This document shows positions 39,014 to 49,501 of a stretch of DNA of 64,000 bases, piece by piece (position 1 is the first letter of the stretch; each line of letters starts with the position of its first letter). The DNA is from Polaribacter pacificus (GTDB lineage Bacteria; Bacteroidota; Bacteroidia; Flavobacteriales; Flavobacteriaceae). The translations under genes and the position numbers were made by a program. A model generated the notes under the pieces. It worked only from the letters and a program-made list of their open reading frames with translations, did no database searches and was not told where the DNA came from. The stretch spans positions 1,488,001 through 1,552,000 of the forward strand of contig NZ_CP150664.1 in assembly GCF_038024035.1 (NCBI RefSeq), given 5' to 3'.

Positions 39014-39955
39014 TTACATTAAAAATTGTCCACTAATGGATGTGTTGGACTGAACCTTGTGCATCACATCAGCGAATAAAGGGGCGCAAGATACAACTTT
39101 TATTTTAGAACTTTCTCTTTTTAAAGGAATTGTATCAGAAACAATTAACTCAACCAAGCTAGAGTTTTCTATACGCTCAATTGCGGTCCCAGATAAGATT
39201 GGATGTGTACAAATTGCACGGACACTTAAAGCACCTTTCTCCATCATTAAATCTGCCGCTTTTGTAAGAGTTCCTCCTGTATCTATCATATCATCAACCA
39301 AGATAACATGTTTTCCTGTTACTTCGCCGATGAGCTCCATATGAGAAATGACATTCGCTTTTTTACGTTGCTTATAACAAATCACTACATCACAATCTAA
39401 GTACTTAGAGTATGCATAGGCTCTTTTAGACCCACCCATATCTGGCGATGCAATCATTAGGTTATCTAACTTTAACGATTTTACATACGGCAAAAAGATG
39501 GTTGAAGCGAATAAATGATCCACTGGCTTTTCAAAAAATCCTTGAATTTGATCTGCATGCAGATCCATGGTCATGATTCTTGTAGCTCCTGCAGCTTGTA
39601 ATAAATTAGCAACCAATTTTGCACCAATAGCAACTCTTGGTTTGTCTTTTCTGTCTTGTCTTGCCCATCCAAAATAAGGCATTACAGCTGTTACGTGTCT
39701 TGCTGATGCTCTTTTAGCAGCATCAATCATTAACAACATTTCCATTAAATTATCTGCTGTTGGAAACGTAGAACCAATAATAAAAATTCTTCTTCCTCTA
39801 ATTGATTCTTCAAATGCAGGTTGAAATTCTCCGTCGCTAAAATGAGTTACTGTAACCTCCCCTAGTGGACTTCCGTATTCTTTGGCAATTTTCTCAGCCA
39901 ATTCTACACTTTGTGAGCAAGCAAAAATTTTTGGTTCAAGTTGATTTGTAGGCAT
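39014..39955 (-). CDS. prs: Ribose-phosphate pyrophosphokinase
   Basis: Makes PRPP from ribose-5-phosphate and ATP, feeding nucleotide, His and Trp synthesis; upp above uses its product. The 313-aa protein has the flexible-loop region MPYFGWARQDRKDKPRVAIG, TMDLHADQIQGFF and the PRPP loop VILVDDMIDTGGTLTKAA. Length is normal. It heads the leftward prs-rplY(-pth) unit. Confidence 0.97.
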   Translation of the reverse strand: MPTNQLEPKIFACSQSVELAEKIAKEYGSPLGEVTVTHFSDGEFQPAFEESIRGRRIFIIGSTFPTADNLMEMLLMIDAAKRASARHVTAVMPYFGWARQDRKDKPRVAIGAKLVANLLQAAGATRIMTMDLHADQIQGFFEKPVDHLFASTIFLPYVKSLKLDNLMIASPDMGGSKRAYAYSKYLDCDVVICYKQRKKANVISHMELIGEVTGKHVILVDDMIDTGGTLTKAADLMMEKGALSVRAICTHPILSGTAIERIENSSLVELIVSDTIPLKRESSKIKVVSCAPLFADVMHKVQSNTSISGQFLM

Positions 39956-39994: not shown

Positions 39995-40002
39995 CAAAAA
40001 TA
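39995..40002 (-). promoter_or_regulatory. Candidate -7 promoter box for prs-rplY
   Basis: TATTTTTG on the minus strand fits TAnnTTTG; transcription would start about 33 nt before the prs ATG. No -33 box found at normal spacing. Confidence 0.4.
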
Positions 40003-40055
40003 AAAATATTTAGTGAGATGAGTGTTTTTTATGCTGATAAACTAAAAATATTTTT

Positions 40056-40063
40056 TAAATTTG
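40056..40063 (+). promoter_or_regulatory. Candidate -7 promoter box for tRNA-Leu
   Basis: TAAATTTG fits TAnnTTTG and is 18 bp before the tRNA 5' end, a spacing that suits a tRNA promoter. No -33 TTTG is evident. Confidence 0.45.
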
Positions 40064-40081
40064 CAGTCCAATTTAAGAATT

Positions 40082-40163
40082 GCTCGAGTGGCGGAATTGG
40101 TAGACGCGCTGGATTCAAAATCCAGTTCTTTCGGGAGTGTGGGTTCGATTCCCACCTCGAGTA
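40082..40163 (+). tRNA. tRNA-Leu (CAA)
   Basis: A class II tRNA with a long variable arm. Acceptor GCTCGAG pairs with CTCGAGT (G1-U72 wobble), the anticodon stem is CTGGA/TCCAG with loop TTCAAAA (anticodon CAA), the variable arm is around TTCTTTCGGGAGT, and the T-loop TTCGATT and discriminator A73 are normal for leucine. CCA is not encoded. Its 3' part (40106 onward) is repeated exactly at 41850, so it looks like an integration target. Confidence 0.96.
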
Positions 40164-40164
40164 C
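40106..40164 (+). repeat. Left copy of 59-bp direct repeat (att-like)
   Basis: From the anticodon arm to one base past the discriminator of tRNA-Leu. It is identical over 59 bp to 41850-41908; flanking bases differ on both sides. Integrases commonly recombine in such 3' tRNA segments. Confidence 0.85.
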
Positions 40165-40202
40165 AAAAAAACCTGACAATTAGTTAATTGTCAGGTTTTT
40201 TT
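40165..40202. terminator. Bidirectional terminator after tRNA-Leu
   Basis: Stem AACCTGACAATTA / TAATTGTCAGGTT with flanking A and T runs, directly after the tRNA. It can also end the leftward TlpA gene, whose stop is at 40221. Confidence 0.85.
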
Positions 40203-40220
40203 ATCTACTATAATAGTATG

Positions 40221-41708
40221 CTATATATTATTTTTATCAAATAAATCGATTAATTTAGAGTCAGATGGCTTTGGTGCATTAGCCGAAACCACCTTACCTC
40301 TTGTATCTAATAATATAAATCTTGGAATGGTATTAACCCTAAAAACCTTTTTAATAATATTGTGAGCAACACTATCTGCATATAGTTGTGTGCCTTTAAG
40401 TGATTTATCTTTAACAAATTTTTTCCACTTCTCTTTATCTTTTTCAGAATCAACAGACACACTGACAAAGCGTATATTCTTGCCGTGATATGCTTTTTCA
40501 ACCTTTTGAAGATATGGGATCTCTTTTATACAAGGACCACACCAAGTAGCCCATAAATCTATATACACATATTGATTCTGAAGATCATTCAACGCCACCT
40601 TACCTCCATTGGTATCTTCAAATAAAATGTTAGGCACTTGACTTCCCTCTAACATACCTTCTGAATCTTTATACTTTATTCTTACAGCTTTAGCCATTTC
40701 TGGGTAAGGACTATTACTATCAAAATGATCATATACTTTTTTCGAAAAATCACCTGGTAAAGCATAGGCCATGTATTCATATCTATTCTTTTCAGATAGC
40801 TCAGTTTCTAACCAATCGTAAAATTCAGGGATTTCTTTATTTGAAGATTTCTCAAAATCATACTTCTTTTTTAAGTAGGTTCTTAAATTATAAAAATAAC
40901 CAGTACCGTGCTTACTTATACTTCCGTCTAATTTAACTGTTTCTAAAAAATTATAATAATCTTCTGGAAGAACTGTTTCTTCTTTATTAGTATAACTAGC
41001 ATGCATTGCTGGATAATTAATTTTTGAACCAACATTTGTTGCCTTATAATCTGCTTTATAAAAAGCAATTAAATCATCACTTAACTTATGAGAACTCGAA
41101 AAGTCATCTAAAAATGCTAATTTATTCTGATATAACTCATCAGCTATTTGCTTATACTCATCAGGCCCTCTGTTTACCAAATTATAATAGTTCCTTAAAA
41201 ATTTACTTTTATAATTGTTAAAACGATACTCTTCTTGATTTACAAATATACTTTGAGCTGCATTTTCTCCCGTAAAATTATATGTGTTTTTTATATCATT
41301 TACATCAACAGTTAAGTGTAAACTATCTCCAGGTTGTAAATAAAGATAAATCATTCTAAAATCGTAAGTCTCCGTTTTCATTATTGTGTCTTTATTCTTA
41401 ACAGTTTTAAGCTGAAACACTTCAGTTATTGGAACCTTACCAAAGGAAAACCACCCTTTTAAAGCTGCTGTTTTTTCCATTTTCATTTTAAAAGAACCGT
41501 CACTATCAAATTTAACTTCTTGGCGAGCAAGGTCTTTTAAAAAATCATATTCATAATAGGAAAAAACAATTGTAGTATCCTTCAGGTTTTCAACTTTTCC
41601 AGTCACCACTATTTTAGTATCATCTTTATCTACCGATTTATTATCACAAGAAATAAATAATTGTAATACTGAAAAAATAGCTGTAAAATATTTTATTTTA
41701 TTTTTCAT
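40221..41708 (-). CDS. TlpA-like thioredoxin-fold lipoprotein with DUF4369-type N-terminus
   Basis: A 495-aa predicted lipoprotein: signal sequence MKNKIKYFTAIFSVLQLFIS then lipobox Cys at residue 21. A DUF4369-like region (about residues 30-150), a helical middle and a C-terminal TlpA/AhpC-TSA domain follow (about 360-495) with the redox motif WATWCGPCIKEIP. Many Bacteroidota carry families of such proteins, thought to reduce disulfides in the periplasm or outer membrane. It is the only gene between the two tRNA-Leu repeats, so it was probably acquired. A -7-like CAAAAATA (minus TATTTTTG) is at 41807-41814. Confidence 0.88.
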   Translation of the reverse strand: MKNKIKYFTAIFSVLQLFISCDNKSVDKDDTKIVVTGKVENLKDTTIVFSYYEYDFLKDLARQEVKFDSDGSFKMKMEKTAALKGWFSFGKVPITEVFQLKTVKNKDTIMKTETYDFRMIYLYLQPGDSLHLTVDVNDIKNTYNFTGENAAQSIFVNQEEYRFNNYKSKFLRNYYNLVNRGPDEYKQIADELYQNKLAFLDDFSSSHKLSDDLIAFYKADYKATNVGSKINYPAMHASYTNKEETVLPEDYYNFLETVKLDGSISKHGTGYFYNLRTYLKKKYDFEKSSNKEIPEFYDWLETELSEKNRYEYMAYALPGDFSKKVYDHFDSNSPYPEMAKAVRIKYKDSEGMLEGSQVPNILFEDTNGGKVALNDLQNQYVYIDLWATWCGPCIKEIPYLQKVEKAYHGKNIRFVSVSVDSEKDKEKWKKFVKDKSLKGTQLYADSVAHNIIKKVFRVNTIPRFILLDTRGKVVSANAPKPSDSKLIDLFDKNNI

Positions 41709-41849
41709 TCTAAGTTAGTTATTAGGATTATAAGAACTTGTCTACTCTTTTTCTTTCTCTAAGCTTTACACTCATCTTATTTAATTTTGTCTGTAACAGA
41801 CAGTAACAAAAATAGGATAAAAAAACTACAAAAAATAAACAACAAGATA

Positions 41850-41908
41850 GCGCTGGATTCAAAATCCAGTTCTTTCGGGAGTGTGGGTTCGATTCCCACC
41901 TCGAGTAC
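41850..41908 (+). pseudogene. Truncated tRNA-Leu copy (3' part, att-like)
   Basis: An exact 59-bp copy of tRNA-Leu from the anticodon arm to one base past A73, without the acceptor 5' strand and D-arm, so it cannot make a tRNA. It lies in the 410-bp gap 41709-42118. Left of it (41709-41849) is AT-rich non-coding DNA. To the right is a terminator and then about 170 bp with no feature other than the presumed kinase promoter region. Confidence 0.92.
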
Positions 41909-41909
41909 T

Positions 41910-41939
41910 AAAAACCTCAACATTCTGTTGAGGTTTTTT
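41910..41939 (+). terminator. Terminator after the truncated tRNA copy
   Basis: Stem AAAAACCTCAAC / GTTGAGGTTTTT with a 5-nt loop. The stem and the next 16 bases up to 41949 are repeated at 48120-48155 beside the oxidoreductase gene. Confidence 0.82.
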
Positions 41940-42118
41940 ACTTTAATACCCACCCTTAATCTAAAGAAAACCTAAAAAACTATGCAGTTTTGAATTCTTT
42001 TCAATAAAAATTTATAACTCTTTAAATATCAAATTATTACAGCATACCATAAAAACACATTCTTTTGGTTTGATGTAAAATTTTTTGTATTTTAATTGCG
42101 TTCAACACTTCAATCTTT

Positions 42119-45100
42119 ATGAATTATACTCAGTTAACAAATACTGCATTAGACCAAAGTAAAGATTCTTTTTGGATCGTAAATCTTGACCTTCAATTAA
42201 TTTACGCAAATAAAGCCTACTTAAGTGCACTAAAAACAATCACAGGAAAAACACCAGAGCTTTACAAACCTGTCTTTCTTTTAAATGATGCAAAAAAATG
42301 GAAATCATACTATAAAAAGGCTTTAAGCGGATCGTCTTTCGAAGTCGATAACCAGCTTTATGATCCAGCGTTAGAAGAAACTAAAAATGGCTGCACTTCT
42401 TTTGAACCTTTACTAGATGATGATAAAAAAATCTTTGCTGTTGCGTGCCGATGGAAAAATAGTGCATCAACCATAAAACACACAAATGAAGCTAGTCGAT
42501 TATTAGATGCTTCGTTAGATGTTTTTTGCACCATCAATGAAAAAGGAGAATTTGTTTATGTAAGCTCAGCTGCCCAAAAACTGTGGGGCTACAAGCCCGA
42601 TGAGTTAATTGGGAGGCCCTATATAGAGTTAACTCTAGAAAATGATAAATTAAAAACCGAAGAAACTGCAACTGCTATCGAAGGTGGGCGCGACATAAAA
42701 ACCTTTTCTAATCGATATCAAAAGAAAAATGGTGAAATTGCCTATAATTTATGGTCCTCAAGATGGGATGCTACAACCAAATTATTCTATTGTGTAGCTA
42801 GAGATAATAAAGAACAAATTGAGCAGGAAGATAAAATTAAGAAAAATGAGCAACGATTTAAAGCGTTAGTGTCAGGTGCATTTGACTTAGTAGCTGTCTT
42901 AGACACTGAAGGATGTTATTTGTATATGAGTCCTTCAATCAAAGCTATTTCTGGTATTCCACCTGAAGAATTTATTGGGAAGTATGCATTTGACTTTGTT
43001 CACCCCGATGATATTAGCCAAACATTAGCTGAGCTTGAAAAATCAACCAAAGTAGATAGGCTAATAATGAAACCTTATCGTGCTAAAAATAATAAAAATG
43101 AATGGAGATGGGTTGAATCGGTATTAACAAACATGTTAGATAATTCAGCAATTAATGGCATTGTTATTAATTCAAGGGATATTACAGATAAAATTGAGCA
43201 GGAAGAACGGATTGCTCAAACTAAAAAAAGATTTGAAAAACTAATCCAAAACAGTACCGACTGTATCACCATAATTTCTCCAGAAGGTGAGACAATCTTT
43301 GTCTCTGAGGGAATAAATGAAATTATAGGCTACACAGCATCAGAAACAATAAACCTGGATATTTGGGAACTAATTCATCCAAAGGATAGAGATAATTCTG
43401 CGAAGGCCATATCACAAGCTATGAAGAATCCGGGTGTTTCTATACAGGGGCACACTTCAAGAATCAAACATAAAGATGGTTCATGGAGATGGGTTAGTGC
43501 TGTTATTACCAACCTGATACATGACCCTTCCATTGGAGGAATTGTGGATGTTATAAGTGACGTAACCAAACAAAAAAATGAAGAGTTTGAAAAGAACCTC
43601 ATCGCTAAAATAAGTAAGACGTTTAATCAAAACATCAACAAAGGCTTATCTCCCTGCTTACTAGATCTATGTAAGGAAATTGCTCGATTTGATGATTTTA
43701 GTTTTGCTGAAATTTGGTTGCCTGCAATTGATACTATAACGCTTAATCTAGCAGCTAGTTACGCAAAGGGCAAAGCTGGTAAAGCATTTTTAAAAGCATC
43801 CAATGACACAAATACAATACGCATAAATGATGGTCTAGCAGGTCAGGTTATGCAAAATAACAAAACAGTGATCTGCGAAGCTAAAGGTGATAATTGGGAC
43901 TTGATTAAGCGAAAATCAGCTGCAAATAAAGCAGGAATTAAAACATTTATTGGTGTTCCATTAACTCATAATAATGAGATAATAGGCGGTCTTTTGATAG
44001 GGACAGAAAAAGCAAAGTCTGCTCTTAATGTGAGTTCTGAACTATTTCTAAACTTAGAGACAGTAGTTGGCTCTGAGTTGAGTAGAAAGCAAATCGAAAT
44101 AGAGCTTTCTCAGATATTTGATTTCACACCAGACATGATTTGTGTAACTGGATTTGATGGTTATATAAAGCGAATAAATCCTGCTGGATTAAAGATATTA
44201 GGCTATTCATTTGATGAAATTTACTCACGTCCAGTAAAGTCATTTGTTCATGAAGAAGATCTGCTGCTTACTGTGGCACAACAAACTAAATTGTATAGTG
44301 GTGAAAACCTTACTAATTTTGAAAACCGCTACATTACAAAGGAAGGTAAAGTAGTTTGGTTGAGCTGGACTGCTACTTCCTTACCTGAGCAAAGTATTAT
44401 TTATGCTGTAGGTAAAGATATCTCTGAAGAAAAGAAACTGAGAGAATTAAACCAGCAAGTTGGCAAGCTCGTCCAAATTGGAAGCTGGGAAGTAGATTTA
44501 ATTAAACAAACACTCTATTGGTCTGATGAAGTGCACAAGATGCATGAAACAGACCCAAATCTCTACAATCCAAACTTGGAAGAAGCAATCAACTTTTACA
44601 GGGAGGATTTTCGGGAAATGGTTCAATCAAAGATAGAAAACGCCATTGCTCACCAAAAAAATTGGGATTTTGAAGCGGTAATCATCACAGCAAATAAGAA
44701 TGAATTATGGGTTCGCTCTATTGGTGATGCCGAATTTAAAAATGGCAAATGCATTCGATTATACGGTGGTTTTCAAGATATTAACACCGTAAAACAAGCT
44801 GAAAATAGACTGCAATCACTTGCCAATAATTTACCTGGAGTAGTGTTTCAGTACCTTATCTATCCTGATGGAACTGACGTCTTAAAATCTGTTAGTGCAG
44901 GTTCAAAAAAAGTATGGGGGTTTTCTGCTAACGAAGTAATGAAAGACAATCAGTTAGTTTGGAACAATATTAAGCTTGGCGGCAATTTTGAAAAGGTTCA
45001 ACAAAGTATTACTGAATCTATAGCGTCTAAATCAAAGTGGTCATATCGATTCAAATATGTAATGCCAAATGGTGAGTTAAAAATCCATCTAGGCAACGGA

Positions 45101-48105: not shown

Positions 48106-48153
48106 ATTAAAGTAAAAAACCTCAACTTTTCAGTTGAGGTTTTTTACTTTAAT
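48106..48153. terminator. Perfect bidirectional terminator, kinase / oxidoreductase
   Basis: A perfect 21-bp inverted repeat (48106-48126 and 48133-48153) with a 6-nt loop. Core CCTCAAC/GTTGAGG is flanked by A and T runs. The right arm covers the TAA stop (48149-48151) of the leftward oxidoreductase gene. Confidence 0.9.
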
Positions 48154-49501
48154 ACGTATCCTTCATCCAATTATAAGGCTTGCGTTTTACCCACATTCCT
48201 CTCGTAAAATCTGGAAAATCTTGTGGCTCTCCGTTGTTTTCTATCGATGCTTCAGAAAGCGGTGTAATGGCACTCCAGGCTGCTGCGTCATACACGTCTA
48301 AAGGTGGGGCAATGTTTTGCAGTGCTGAGTTGACAAAGGCATTAATCACAAAGAAATCCATTCCACCATGACCAGCCCCTTGCGCATGCTCACCGTATTT
48401 TTTCCAAAGTGGATGATCGTATTTGTCTAACCATTCTTTAGAAGCATCCCAAGCATGAGGCTTTGAAACTCCTTCTATATACATTCTATCCCCATCTTTT
48501 TCCCACAATCCATTAGCGCCTTGCACTCTAAACCCTAAAGAATAGGGTCTGGGTAAGTTACAGTCATGAGTCACAATAATTGTTTCTCCATTAGCAGTTT
48601 CAATGGTCGAAGTGATTACATCTCCTTGTTTAAATTTTAATTTTGCATTGGGATGGTCTTTGCCTCCATTAGCAACTATATAATTGTGCAAACCGATTCC
48701 TTTGGTGGCATGAGAAGTTAGGGACATAAATCGGTTACCTCTATTTACATCACACATGGTAGCCATTGGCCCTACTCCGTGAGTTGGATATACATCGGCA
48801 TTTCTCAATAAAGAATGTTGTGTTCGCCAAGCGGACTCTGAAATTCCTTTATCTCCAAACTCCACTCCTTTTCCGTAAGGTGTTTTTCCATCATTAAACT
48901 TAACAAAGCGCAAATCATGCTGATAGCCACATCGAAAATGAACCAACTCTCCAAAAACATTTTGCTTGACCATATTTAAAACCGCCAAGACATCTCTTCT
49001 GTAATTTACATTTTCTAAAATCATTAAATGACTCCCAGTTTGCTCATGGGTATTGACCAAATCCCAGCACTCCTCCATGGTATTTGCTGCAGACACTTCC
49101 AATCCGGTATATTTTCCAGCCAACATCGCATCTTTTGCCATTCTCGTATGCCACAACCAAGGTGTAGAAATGATTACGGCATCTACGTTTTTAAGAGCCA
49201 ATAAATTTTTATAATCCTCTTCATTGCTTCCAAAAACAGCGGGCTTATTCTTTTCAAATTTTGCAACTTGCTTCAAGGCTACTTGTATTCTTGCAGGATC
49301 AATATCACAAATGGCCGTCACCTCTACATCATCTCTTTGCAATACATTGTTTAAATGGTTAGTGCCTCGTAAACCCACTCCTATCATACCGATTTTCAAC
49401 TTCTTGGCTGGATTGGTCATTCCATAAGAAAGACTAGGAGCCATGGCGATTCCCGTACCTATTATAGCTGATTTTTTGATAAAATCTCTTCTTGAACTCA
49501 T
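48149..49501 (-). CDS. GH109-like Gfo/Idh/MocA oxidoreductase, Tat-exported
   Basis: A 450-aa exported protein close to glycoside hydrolase family 109 (NAD-dependent alpha-N-acetylgalactosaminidase) as I remember it. The twin-arginine signal is SSRRDFIKKSAIIGTGIAMA. The Rossmann motif MIGVGLRGTNHLNN follows near residue 39. GH109-type blocks are STPWLWHT, LENVNYRRDVLAVLNM, GGYQHDLR-like GYQHDLRFVKF, YPTHGVGPMATMCDVNRGNR and GHGGMDFF. GH109 keeps NAD tightly bound and cleaves by a redox-elimination route; substrate here is inferred. The gene is alone, with no sulfatase, SusCD or other CAZyme nearby. Confidence 0.85.
   Translation of the reverse strand: MSSRRDFIKKSAIIGTGIAMAPSLSYGMTNPAKKLKIGMIGVGLRGTNHLNNVLQRDDVEVTAICDIDPARIQVALKQVAKFEKNKPAVFGSNEEDYKNLLALKNVDAVIISTPWLWHTRMAKDAMLAGKYTGLEVSAANTMEECWDLVNTHEQTGSHLMILENVNYRRDVLAVLNMVKQNVFGELVHFRCGYQHDLRFVKFNDGKTPYGKGVEFGDKGISESAWRTQHSLLRNADVYPTHGVGPMATMCDVNRGNRFMSLTSHATKGIGLHNYIVANGGKDHPNAKLKFKQGDVITSTIETANGETIIVTHDCNLPRPYSLGFRVQGANGLWEKDGDRMYIEGVSKPHAWDASKEWLDKYDHPLWKKYGEHAQGAGHGGMDFFVINAFVNSALQNIAPPLDVYDAAAWSAITPLSEASIENNGEPQDFPDFTRGMWVKRKPYNWMKDTY

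Follow-up and report, generated by a model that had tools for sequence, protein, structure and literature searches.

How did a single lipoprotein gene come to lie between an intact tRNA-Leu(CAA) gene and a second, partial copy of the same tRNA? The locus belongs to the window analysed here, a stretch of 64,000 nucleotides (bases 1,488,001–1,552,000) of a single-contig genome of 2.72 Mb. The last 59 bases of the tRNA recur downstream in the same orientation with zero mismatches, at a distance of 1,744 bp from start to start (Table 1). The repeat search paired 40106–40185 with 41850–41929, with identity over the first 59 bases. A 32-base piece of the repeat, searched with up to three mismatches, occurred twice in the window, against a mean of 0 in shuffled sequences (n = 100). 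The perfect 59-bp repeat of the tRNA-Leu 3' end reported in a preliminary description of this DNA was thus confirmed by sequence, repeat search and shuffle control, and ARAGORN called no tRNA at the second copy, in agreement with the claim that it is not one.

Table 1 Features of the tRNA-Leu(CAA) locus, with positions in the window
Feature	Position	Strand	Basis or remark
Prs, ribose-phosphate pyrophosphokinase, conserved left flank	39014..39955	-	domain search, locus comparison
tRNA-Leu(CAA), intact	40082..40164	+	ARAGORN
Proximal 59-bp copy, attL-like core, tRNA bases 25-83	40106..40164	+	sequence, repeat search
Inverted repeat with T-run, terminator-like, CCTGACAATTAGTTAATTGTCAGG	40165..40203		18-nt perfect inverted repeat
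TlpA-type thioredoxin-fold lipoprotein gene (putative), 495 aa, uninterrupted	40221..41708	-	ORF list, Pfam, homologues
Right end of unit, 141 bp upstream of lipoprotein gene	41709..41849		one TAnnTTTG box
Displaced 3' copy of tRNA-Leu(CAA), attR-like core	41850..41908	+	repeat search; no tRNA call
Terminator-like stem CCTCAACATTCTGTTGAGG with T-run	41909..41940		CCTCAAC..GTTGAGG at 41915-41933
Multi-PAS histidine kinase, 1984 aa	42119..48073	+	eight PAS_3 stretches
Second CCTCAAC..GTTGAGG stem	48114..48145		right flank matches G088 empty site, 25/27 bases
Gfo/Idh-type oxidoreductase, conserved right flank	48149..49501	-	85% identical in G088

Between the copies, the only listed ORF of at least 80 aa encodes a 495-aa protein to which Pfam assigned a thioredoxin-like domain (Redoxin/AhpC-TSA), and its lipobox-like start suggests a lipoprotein. 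It had been described as a TlpA/DUF4369 lipoprotein; the TlpA-type, thioredoxin-like assignment stood, and DUF4369 was not reported by Pfam at E ≤ 0.001. The closest named relatives were TlpA family disulfide reductases, mostly of Flavobacteriaceae, the top ones (54–56%) coming from Sinomicrobium, Salinimicrobium, Winogradskyella and Gelidibacter, with one further protein at 66%. Within the genus, relatives at E ≤ 1e-48 were detected in 20 of 166 genomes including the window's own (nine candidates scored per genome). Just one in the other 165 genomes was full-length (G041), and the remaining ones aligned only from about residue 114 (32–34%) or only in the C-terminal part (39–58%). A family-wide search at E ≤ 1e-80, with three candidates scored per genome, matched 2 of 397 genomes, the window's own and G274. 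Named genome contigs yielded 14 relatives, matching mainly in the C-terminal part, whereas plasmid and phage records held no full-length relative (none covered 80% of the protein), and a search of viral contigs for close relatives only returned none. The G+C content of the ORF (0.292) was the lowest of the 49 mechanically listed window ORFs of at least 150 aa (mean 0.350, sd 0.020), and its third-position G+C was the second lowest. Given this sparse distribution and low G+C, the gene looks foreign; it is probably expressed in its host.

In both G274 and G041, the relative is the last gene of a SusC-type/SusD locus. It comes after FecR (Pfam), a SusC-type TonB receptor, SusD and a 294-aa protein in G274, and after SusD and a SusC-type receptor in G041, where one ORF was read as FecR. 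The likeness of the window's gene to the SusC-type/SusD/TlpA loci of Bacteroidota lies in these TlpA relatives (57% in G274, 39% in G041); there the gene is last in its locus, whereas in the window it stands alone.

Neither the repeats nor the TlpA gene are fixed in the relatives. Relatedness was judged by Prs alone, and 88 of 90 tRNA loci could be oriented. An empty tRNA-Leu site, which the preliminary description had proposed to look for, was found in G088, one of the two closest relatives among the compared loci (Prs 93% identical). There the oxidoreductase gene (for whose counterpart in the window no NCBIfam model scored over its cut-off) comes immediately after the tRNA and a CCTCAAC..GTTGAGG stem, and neither a second 3' copy nor a TlpA match at E ≤ 1e-48 was found. 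Three other relatives (G145, G141 and G135; Prs 90–92%) carry other genes between the tRNA and the oxidoreductase gene, with no second core, and the interval therefore gains and loses genes often. In the window, a CCTCAAC..GTTGAGG stem lies on either side of the histidine kinase gene, and the locus holds no homologue of this gene in G088, G145, G141, G135 or G143. The gene is probably a second acquisition at this hot spot, because the stem that matches G088 lies after it. Before the insertion, the order was probably tRNA, stem, histidine kinase, stem and oxidoreductase.

The two tRNA copies are followed by different stems, the distal one by a CCTCAAC-type stem and the proximal one by the CCTGACAATTAGTTAATTGTCAGG stem (arms at 40165–40182 and 40185–40202), which sits between the tRNA and the convergent lipoprotein gene. 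Stems of the CCTCAACATTCTGTTGAGG type lie 3' of tRNA-Leu(CAA) in G088, G145 and G141, and other stems in G135, G143, G169 and G011. Because stems of the CCTCAAC type occur often (31 in the 829 kb of loci retrieved) and are not found 3' of the tRNA in every near relative, we treat the stem as supporting evidence only. The idea that the distal-copy stem is the directly ancestral terminator was rejected, as the G088-matching stem is at 48120–48139, beyond the histidine kinase gene. The terminators named in the preliminary description could be read at both stems as a stem plus T-run, but a consensus terminator scan of 40000–42150 found 0 terminator-like sites by its own rule, perhaps because the stems absorb the T-run.

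The tRNA-Leu(CAA) gene is an insertion hot spot in the genus. Searches with the tRNA against the 166 genus genomes (58 at E ≤ 1e-8; 54 and 54 at E ≤ 1e-11) gave some tRNA match in 54 + 52 + 45 = 151 of them, part of these being other tRNAs. Displaced 3' copies lie downstream in the same orientation in 8 of the 166 genomes (the window's own is G000), a lower bound as draft genomes may hide copies on other contigs. The distance between copies is 1.7 kb in G000, 37 kb in G001, 41 kb in G013, 49 kb in G058, 58 kb in G020, 60 kb in G087, 101 kb in G112 and 0.2 kb in G137. All displaced copies start at tRNA bases 25–28, on the first base of the anticodon arm or at most three bases ahead of it (base 26–28 in the seven other genomes, base 25 in the window). 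In each of the six large islands (37–101 kb), a tyrosine integrase ORF marks the far end; it has 403–404 aa in G020, G001, G058, G013 and G112 and 353 aa in G087, and in G112 it lies about 1 kb before the copy, with a 241-aa ORF between. The island integrases are 61–90% identical in the compared pairs. The G001 island carries a type IV secretion (T4SS) coupling protein and is therefore ICE-like. An island of the same plan (23.6 kb) was detected in another genus (G433), with a 403-aa integrase 62–75% identical to the others. Different cargo between such repeats, also proposed as a thing to look for, is thus provided by integrase-bearing islands at the same tRNA in relatives.

The island-integrase family was detected at E ≤ 1e-100 in 16 of the 166 genus genomes. 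Eight members are at least 62% identical (query included); six of them adjoin a displaced tRNA-Leu(CAA) copy, that of G176 neighbours an almost complete tRNA-Leu(CAA)-like sequence, and that of G071 has no tRNA-Leu(CAA) copy within 1.5 kb. The eight members at 45–57% are all without a displaced tRNA-Leu(CAA) copy, and one of them (G092) has tRNA-Leu(TAG). A family-wide pattern search, which excludes intact tRNAs with C at base 24, matched 10 of 397 genomes; three matches are displaced copies (G000, G020 and G433), and the remaining seven, with T at base 24, resemble intact tRNAs.

In G137 (L175:14853–15139), a decayed relic of about 0.2 kb has the left arm repeat, a displaced copy with 6/56 differences, and 20–23 bp of right-end sequence. 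In G013 (L099:5482–5618), a second, diverged tRNA-Leu of full length begins about 16 bases after a tRNA-Leu 5' half (bases 1–44), an arrangement that looks as though the island had brought a whole tRNA and not a 3' half.

Taken from the sequence comparisons, a tyrosine-integrase-type insertion is a well supported explanation of the repeat framing, because the copy begins at the anticodon-arm boundary, the tRNA and side are shared with the islands, the site is empty in G088, and the enclosed gene is sparsely distributed and low in G+C. The preliminary description had read the repeats as the scar of site-specific integration, and the intact tRNA, the displaced same-orientation 3' fragment and the att core shared with integrase islands all agree with this. 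The 5' part of the tRNA is presumably original, and the 3' part, from the anticodon arm, presumably came with the inserted unit. The two cores of the unit are identical (0/56 differences); in the other islands, the proximal and displaced cores differ at 0–12 positions, with 0 in four of eight (G020, G001, G087 and G433). This identity fits a recent event but is no proof of one, because the same 83-bp tRNA haplotype is 100% identical in many relatives.

We considered whether the 3' end of the tRNA was first duplicated locally in tandem and the gene inserted afterwards. This is disfavoured, since the stems downstream of the two copies differ and the displaced copy begins at the boundary seen in the islands. 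It also seems quite improbable that the unit arose by homologous recombination without any integrase, with transformed donor DNA (tRNA-Leu(CAA), terminator and a convergent TlpA gene) entering in a Campbell-type or insertion-duplication event. In its favour, the left junction resembles that of G088, where an ordinary chromosomal tRNA faces a convergent gene, the 83-bp tRNA identity among relatives is perhaps enough for short-homology recombination, and the unit has no arms. Homology alone, however, predicts any start point, whereas the copy starts at base 25, at most three bases from the boundary at bases 26–28 of seven genomes, and the event would require a circle or a second, precise illegitimate join.

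The preliminary description had found no integrase between the repeats; the lipoprotein gene is indeed the sole listed ORF of at least 80 aa there, and tblastn with nine proteins (four island integrases, four tyrosine recombinases of the own genome and one P-type ATPase) gave no hit in the window at E ≤ 1, and thus no sign of a leftover integrase. The arm sequences of the islands are missing as well. In all eight comparison islands (seven of the genus plus G433), an arm-type repeat, GGTNNAACATAGG(T/C)NNAAC, lies 39–42 bases after the rebuilt tRNA. The GGTNNAACATAGGTNNAAC-type arm repeat, one base different in G137, is missing from the window's unit, where the lipoprotein gene already ends at that place, with its stop codon 57 bp beyond the tRNA. 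When the sequence 3' of the tRNA was scanned for periodic repeats, 11 of 87 loci were positive (about 1% in shuffled sequences), and the window's unit was not among them. At the other end, the 250 bp left of the displaced copies (143 bp in G137) form two related groups, G020/G001/G058/G087 and G112/G433/G013/G137, and therefore even the 0.2-kb relic of G137 is recognisable. The right end of the window's unit matches none of these eight (best 11 bp, E 0.085); its TAnnTTTG box, at 41814–41807 on the minus strand, has no well-spaced TTG. The missing arms argue both against an intact mobile element and against an origin from the local island family by simple deletion.

The own genome encodes four tyrosine recombinases and gave no match to the integrase family of this site at E ≤ 1e-100, so that the search for a tRNA-Leu(CAA) integrase elsewhere in the genome, as previously suggested, was negative for this family. 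Three of the recombinases align with the island integrases at 23–28% (once 36% over 72 aa), and the fourth gave no alignment to them at E ≤ 1e-3. A 416-aa tyrosine integrase of the own genome (about 2,255,600–2,257,200; L190) is encoded between an AcrB-type efflux gene and tRNA-Ser(GGA), the latter preceding it by about 240 bp, and no displaced tRNA-Ser 3' fragment was found in the 68 kb around it. This integrase was considered as the actor at tRNA-Leu(CAA) and rejected, as it adjoins tRNA-Ser(GGA) and is 23–25% identical to the island integrases (36% over 72 aa once).

The unit could in principle be a mini-element that still moves in trans through the integrase of a resident or visiting island, as the preliminary description had raised. 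Its att cores are intact and identical, and the integrase family of the site occurs in 16 of 166 genus genomes, yet the own genome lacks a family member at E ≤ 1e-100 and the arm repeats are missing. Moreover, a search of genus DNA (two candidates scored per genome) gave no second copy of the unit among the matches listed. The listed matches outside the own genome lie within query positions 1–446, the C-terminal part of the gene, with G101 also matching the left end, and none reaches the right end. Viral contigs, searched for close relatives, held no relative. Mobility in trans today is thus not supported beyond the two intact cores, and we regard this explanation as highly improbable.

Stepwise trimming of an island ranks second to the circle proposed below, and we consider it unlikely. 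The unit would then be the stub of an integrative island, a cis-mobilizable element (CIME) in the strict sense, in which internal deletions took the integrase, the transfer genes and the arms and left one cargo gene. CIMEs are described as decayed elements that keep attL and attR in the available text of PMC5704250, G137 shows decay at the same site (a relic of about 0.2 kb), and the relatives of the gene end SusC-type/SusD loci, so that a solo TlpA gene looks like a remainder. Nevertheless, a single deletion cannot trim both ends and leave a middle gene, the lipoprotein gene stops where the arms belong, and the identical cores suggest little time for stepwise decay, although four of the eight other islands also show no differences. 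The missing arms weaken the trimmed-island explanation.

The course of events that we favour, and hold to be reasonably probable, is that a small circle was inserted into tRNA-Leu(CAA) by an integrase from outside and that the unit is now a passive passenger. On this circle, the single TlpA-type lipoprotein gene would have been accompanied by a tRNA-Leu(CAA) 3' half, a terminator and the 141 bp of the right end. Tyrosine-integrase-type recombination, with a crossover block reaching from the anticodon arm to the 3' end, would have put it into the host tRNA; the incoming 3' half would have rebuilt the tRNA, and the host's own 3' half and terminator would have moved 1,744 bp downstream. The integrase, absent from the unit, would most likely have been supplied by an island like those that relatives carry at this tRNA; that island may either have made the circle by misfired excision beside a donor tRNA-Leu or have been trimmed away later. 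Left with only its att cores, the unit would today be CIME-like and probably inert. Several observations count against this favoured course: the unit carries no integrase and lacks the arm repeat, its right end matches none of the eight islands, the own tyrosine recombinases have low identity to the island integrases, the distal copy is not directly beside the ancestral flank, and CCTCAAC-type stems are widespread yet missing after some of the tRNAs and displaced copies. A more specific version, which we think rather unlikely, is that an integrase resident in the donor excised a chromosomal gene lying beside tRNA-Leu(CAA), and that the circle integrated at the same tRNA elsewhere without element ends. 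If true, tRNA att recombination would have captured an ordinary chromosomal gene.

Compared with known systems, the unit resembles a CIME in what it retains, and is unusually small but otherwise of a known kind. According to the available text of PMC5704250, a CIME is a decayed element without integration or transfer genes that keeps attL and attR; the unit likewise keeps two att cores without such genes, and differs in its missing local arm repeat and unmatched right end. No ancestral island with the ends of the unit was found among the eight islands at tRNA-Leu(CAA). With the islands of the genus, the unit shares the tRNA, the core boundary (anticodon arm to 3' end) and the side. A CCTCAAC-type stem follows the distal copy, as in the unit, in four of seven islands (G001, G020, G058 and G112) of the set that includes G433; the displaced copies in G087 and G137 are not followed by this stem type, and that in G013 is followed by a variant. 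In contrast to the unit, the islands of the genus and G433 measure 24–101 kb and have a far-end integrase and left and right ends shared within groups. Islander maps tRNA-targeted genomic islands, and the available text of PMC4383910 gives anticodon-centred 'A' sites for 2083 of 3919 islands. The unit has in common with these islands an intact tRNA, a same-orientation displaced 3' fragment and an anticodon-centred attachment. As stated in that text, Islander rejects candidates without an integrase and those below 2 kb; the unit fails both the integrase rule and the 2–200 kb length rule (1,744 bp). In the literature consulted, mostly without subscription papers, we recognised no paper on tRNA-Leu(CAA) islands of Flavobacteriaceae.

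The locus thus presents a clean, possibly recent and very small tRNA insertion that a standard island finder would discard, having no integrase and being under 2 kb. If such units are common, part of the single-gene acquisition beside tRNAs may come from island integrases acting on DNA other than their own. The genus offers a ready comparative system, with one tRNA at which an empty site, full islands, a decayed relic and a stub can be compared.

Another type of unit was observed at the same tRNA in other genomes. At 8 of the 88 orientable tRNA-Leu(CAA) loci, a GIY-YIG ORF of about 80 aa ends within about 10 nt of the intact tRNA 5' end (L035 in G020, L160 in G175, L137 in G110, L127 in G093, L153 in G142, L056 in G067, L037 in G040 and L157 in G167; PF01541 was tested for L127 only). 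The ORF runs into the tRNA in L037 and has in-frame stops in L056. The GIY-YIG ORF is preceded by a 5' piece of this tRNA that a CCTGTCTGCCGACAGGCAGG-type palindrome interrupts. The arrangement looks like a tiny homing-type unit that replaces the tRNA 5' half. The mirror order was found in G143 (L174:1867–2880), where tRNA-Leu(CAA) is followed by a stem, a GIY-YIG ORF (82 aa, PF01541), a 3' tRNA fragment whose T-arm is interrupted by a palindrome, a stem and a second GIY-YIG ORF (95% identical); the array ends with a second split 3' fragment, a short unit with CACCTCGAGTAC at its end, and finally a CCTCAAC-type stem. The window gave no match to the G143 GIY-YIG proteins at E ≤ 1e-4 and no CTGTC..GACAG palindrome was found in it; its unit differs from these in having neither a GIY-YIG ORF nor a palindrome-split tRNA fragment. 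In the same, mostly non-subscription literature, no paper on GIY-YIG/palindrome units was recognised, and these units may be more novel than the one-gene insertion. A further short unit, starting with GAATAAATC and containing an AAGC..GCTT stem, lies directly 3' of the tRNA in G010 (L034/L093) and occurs in slightly different form in G014 (L055) and G126 (L113); it recurs in the G143 array (L174, about 2690–2810), where it ends with a further copy of the tRNA's last 12 bases.
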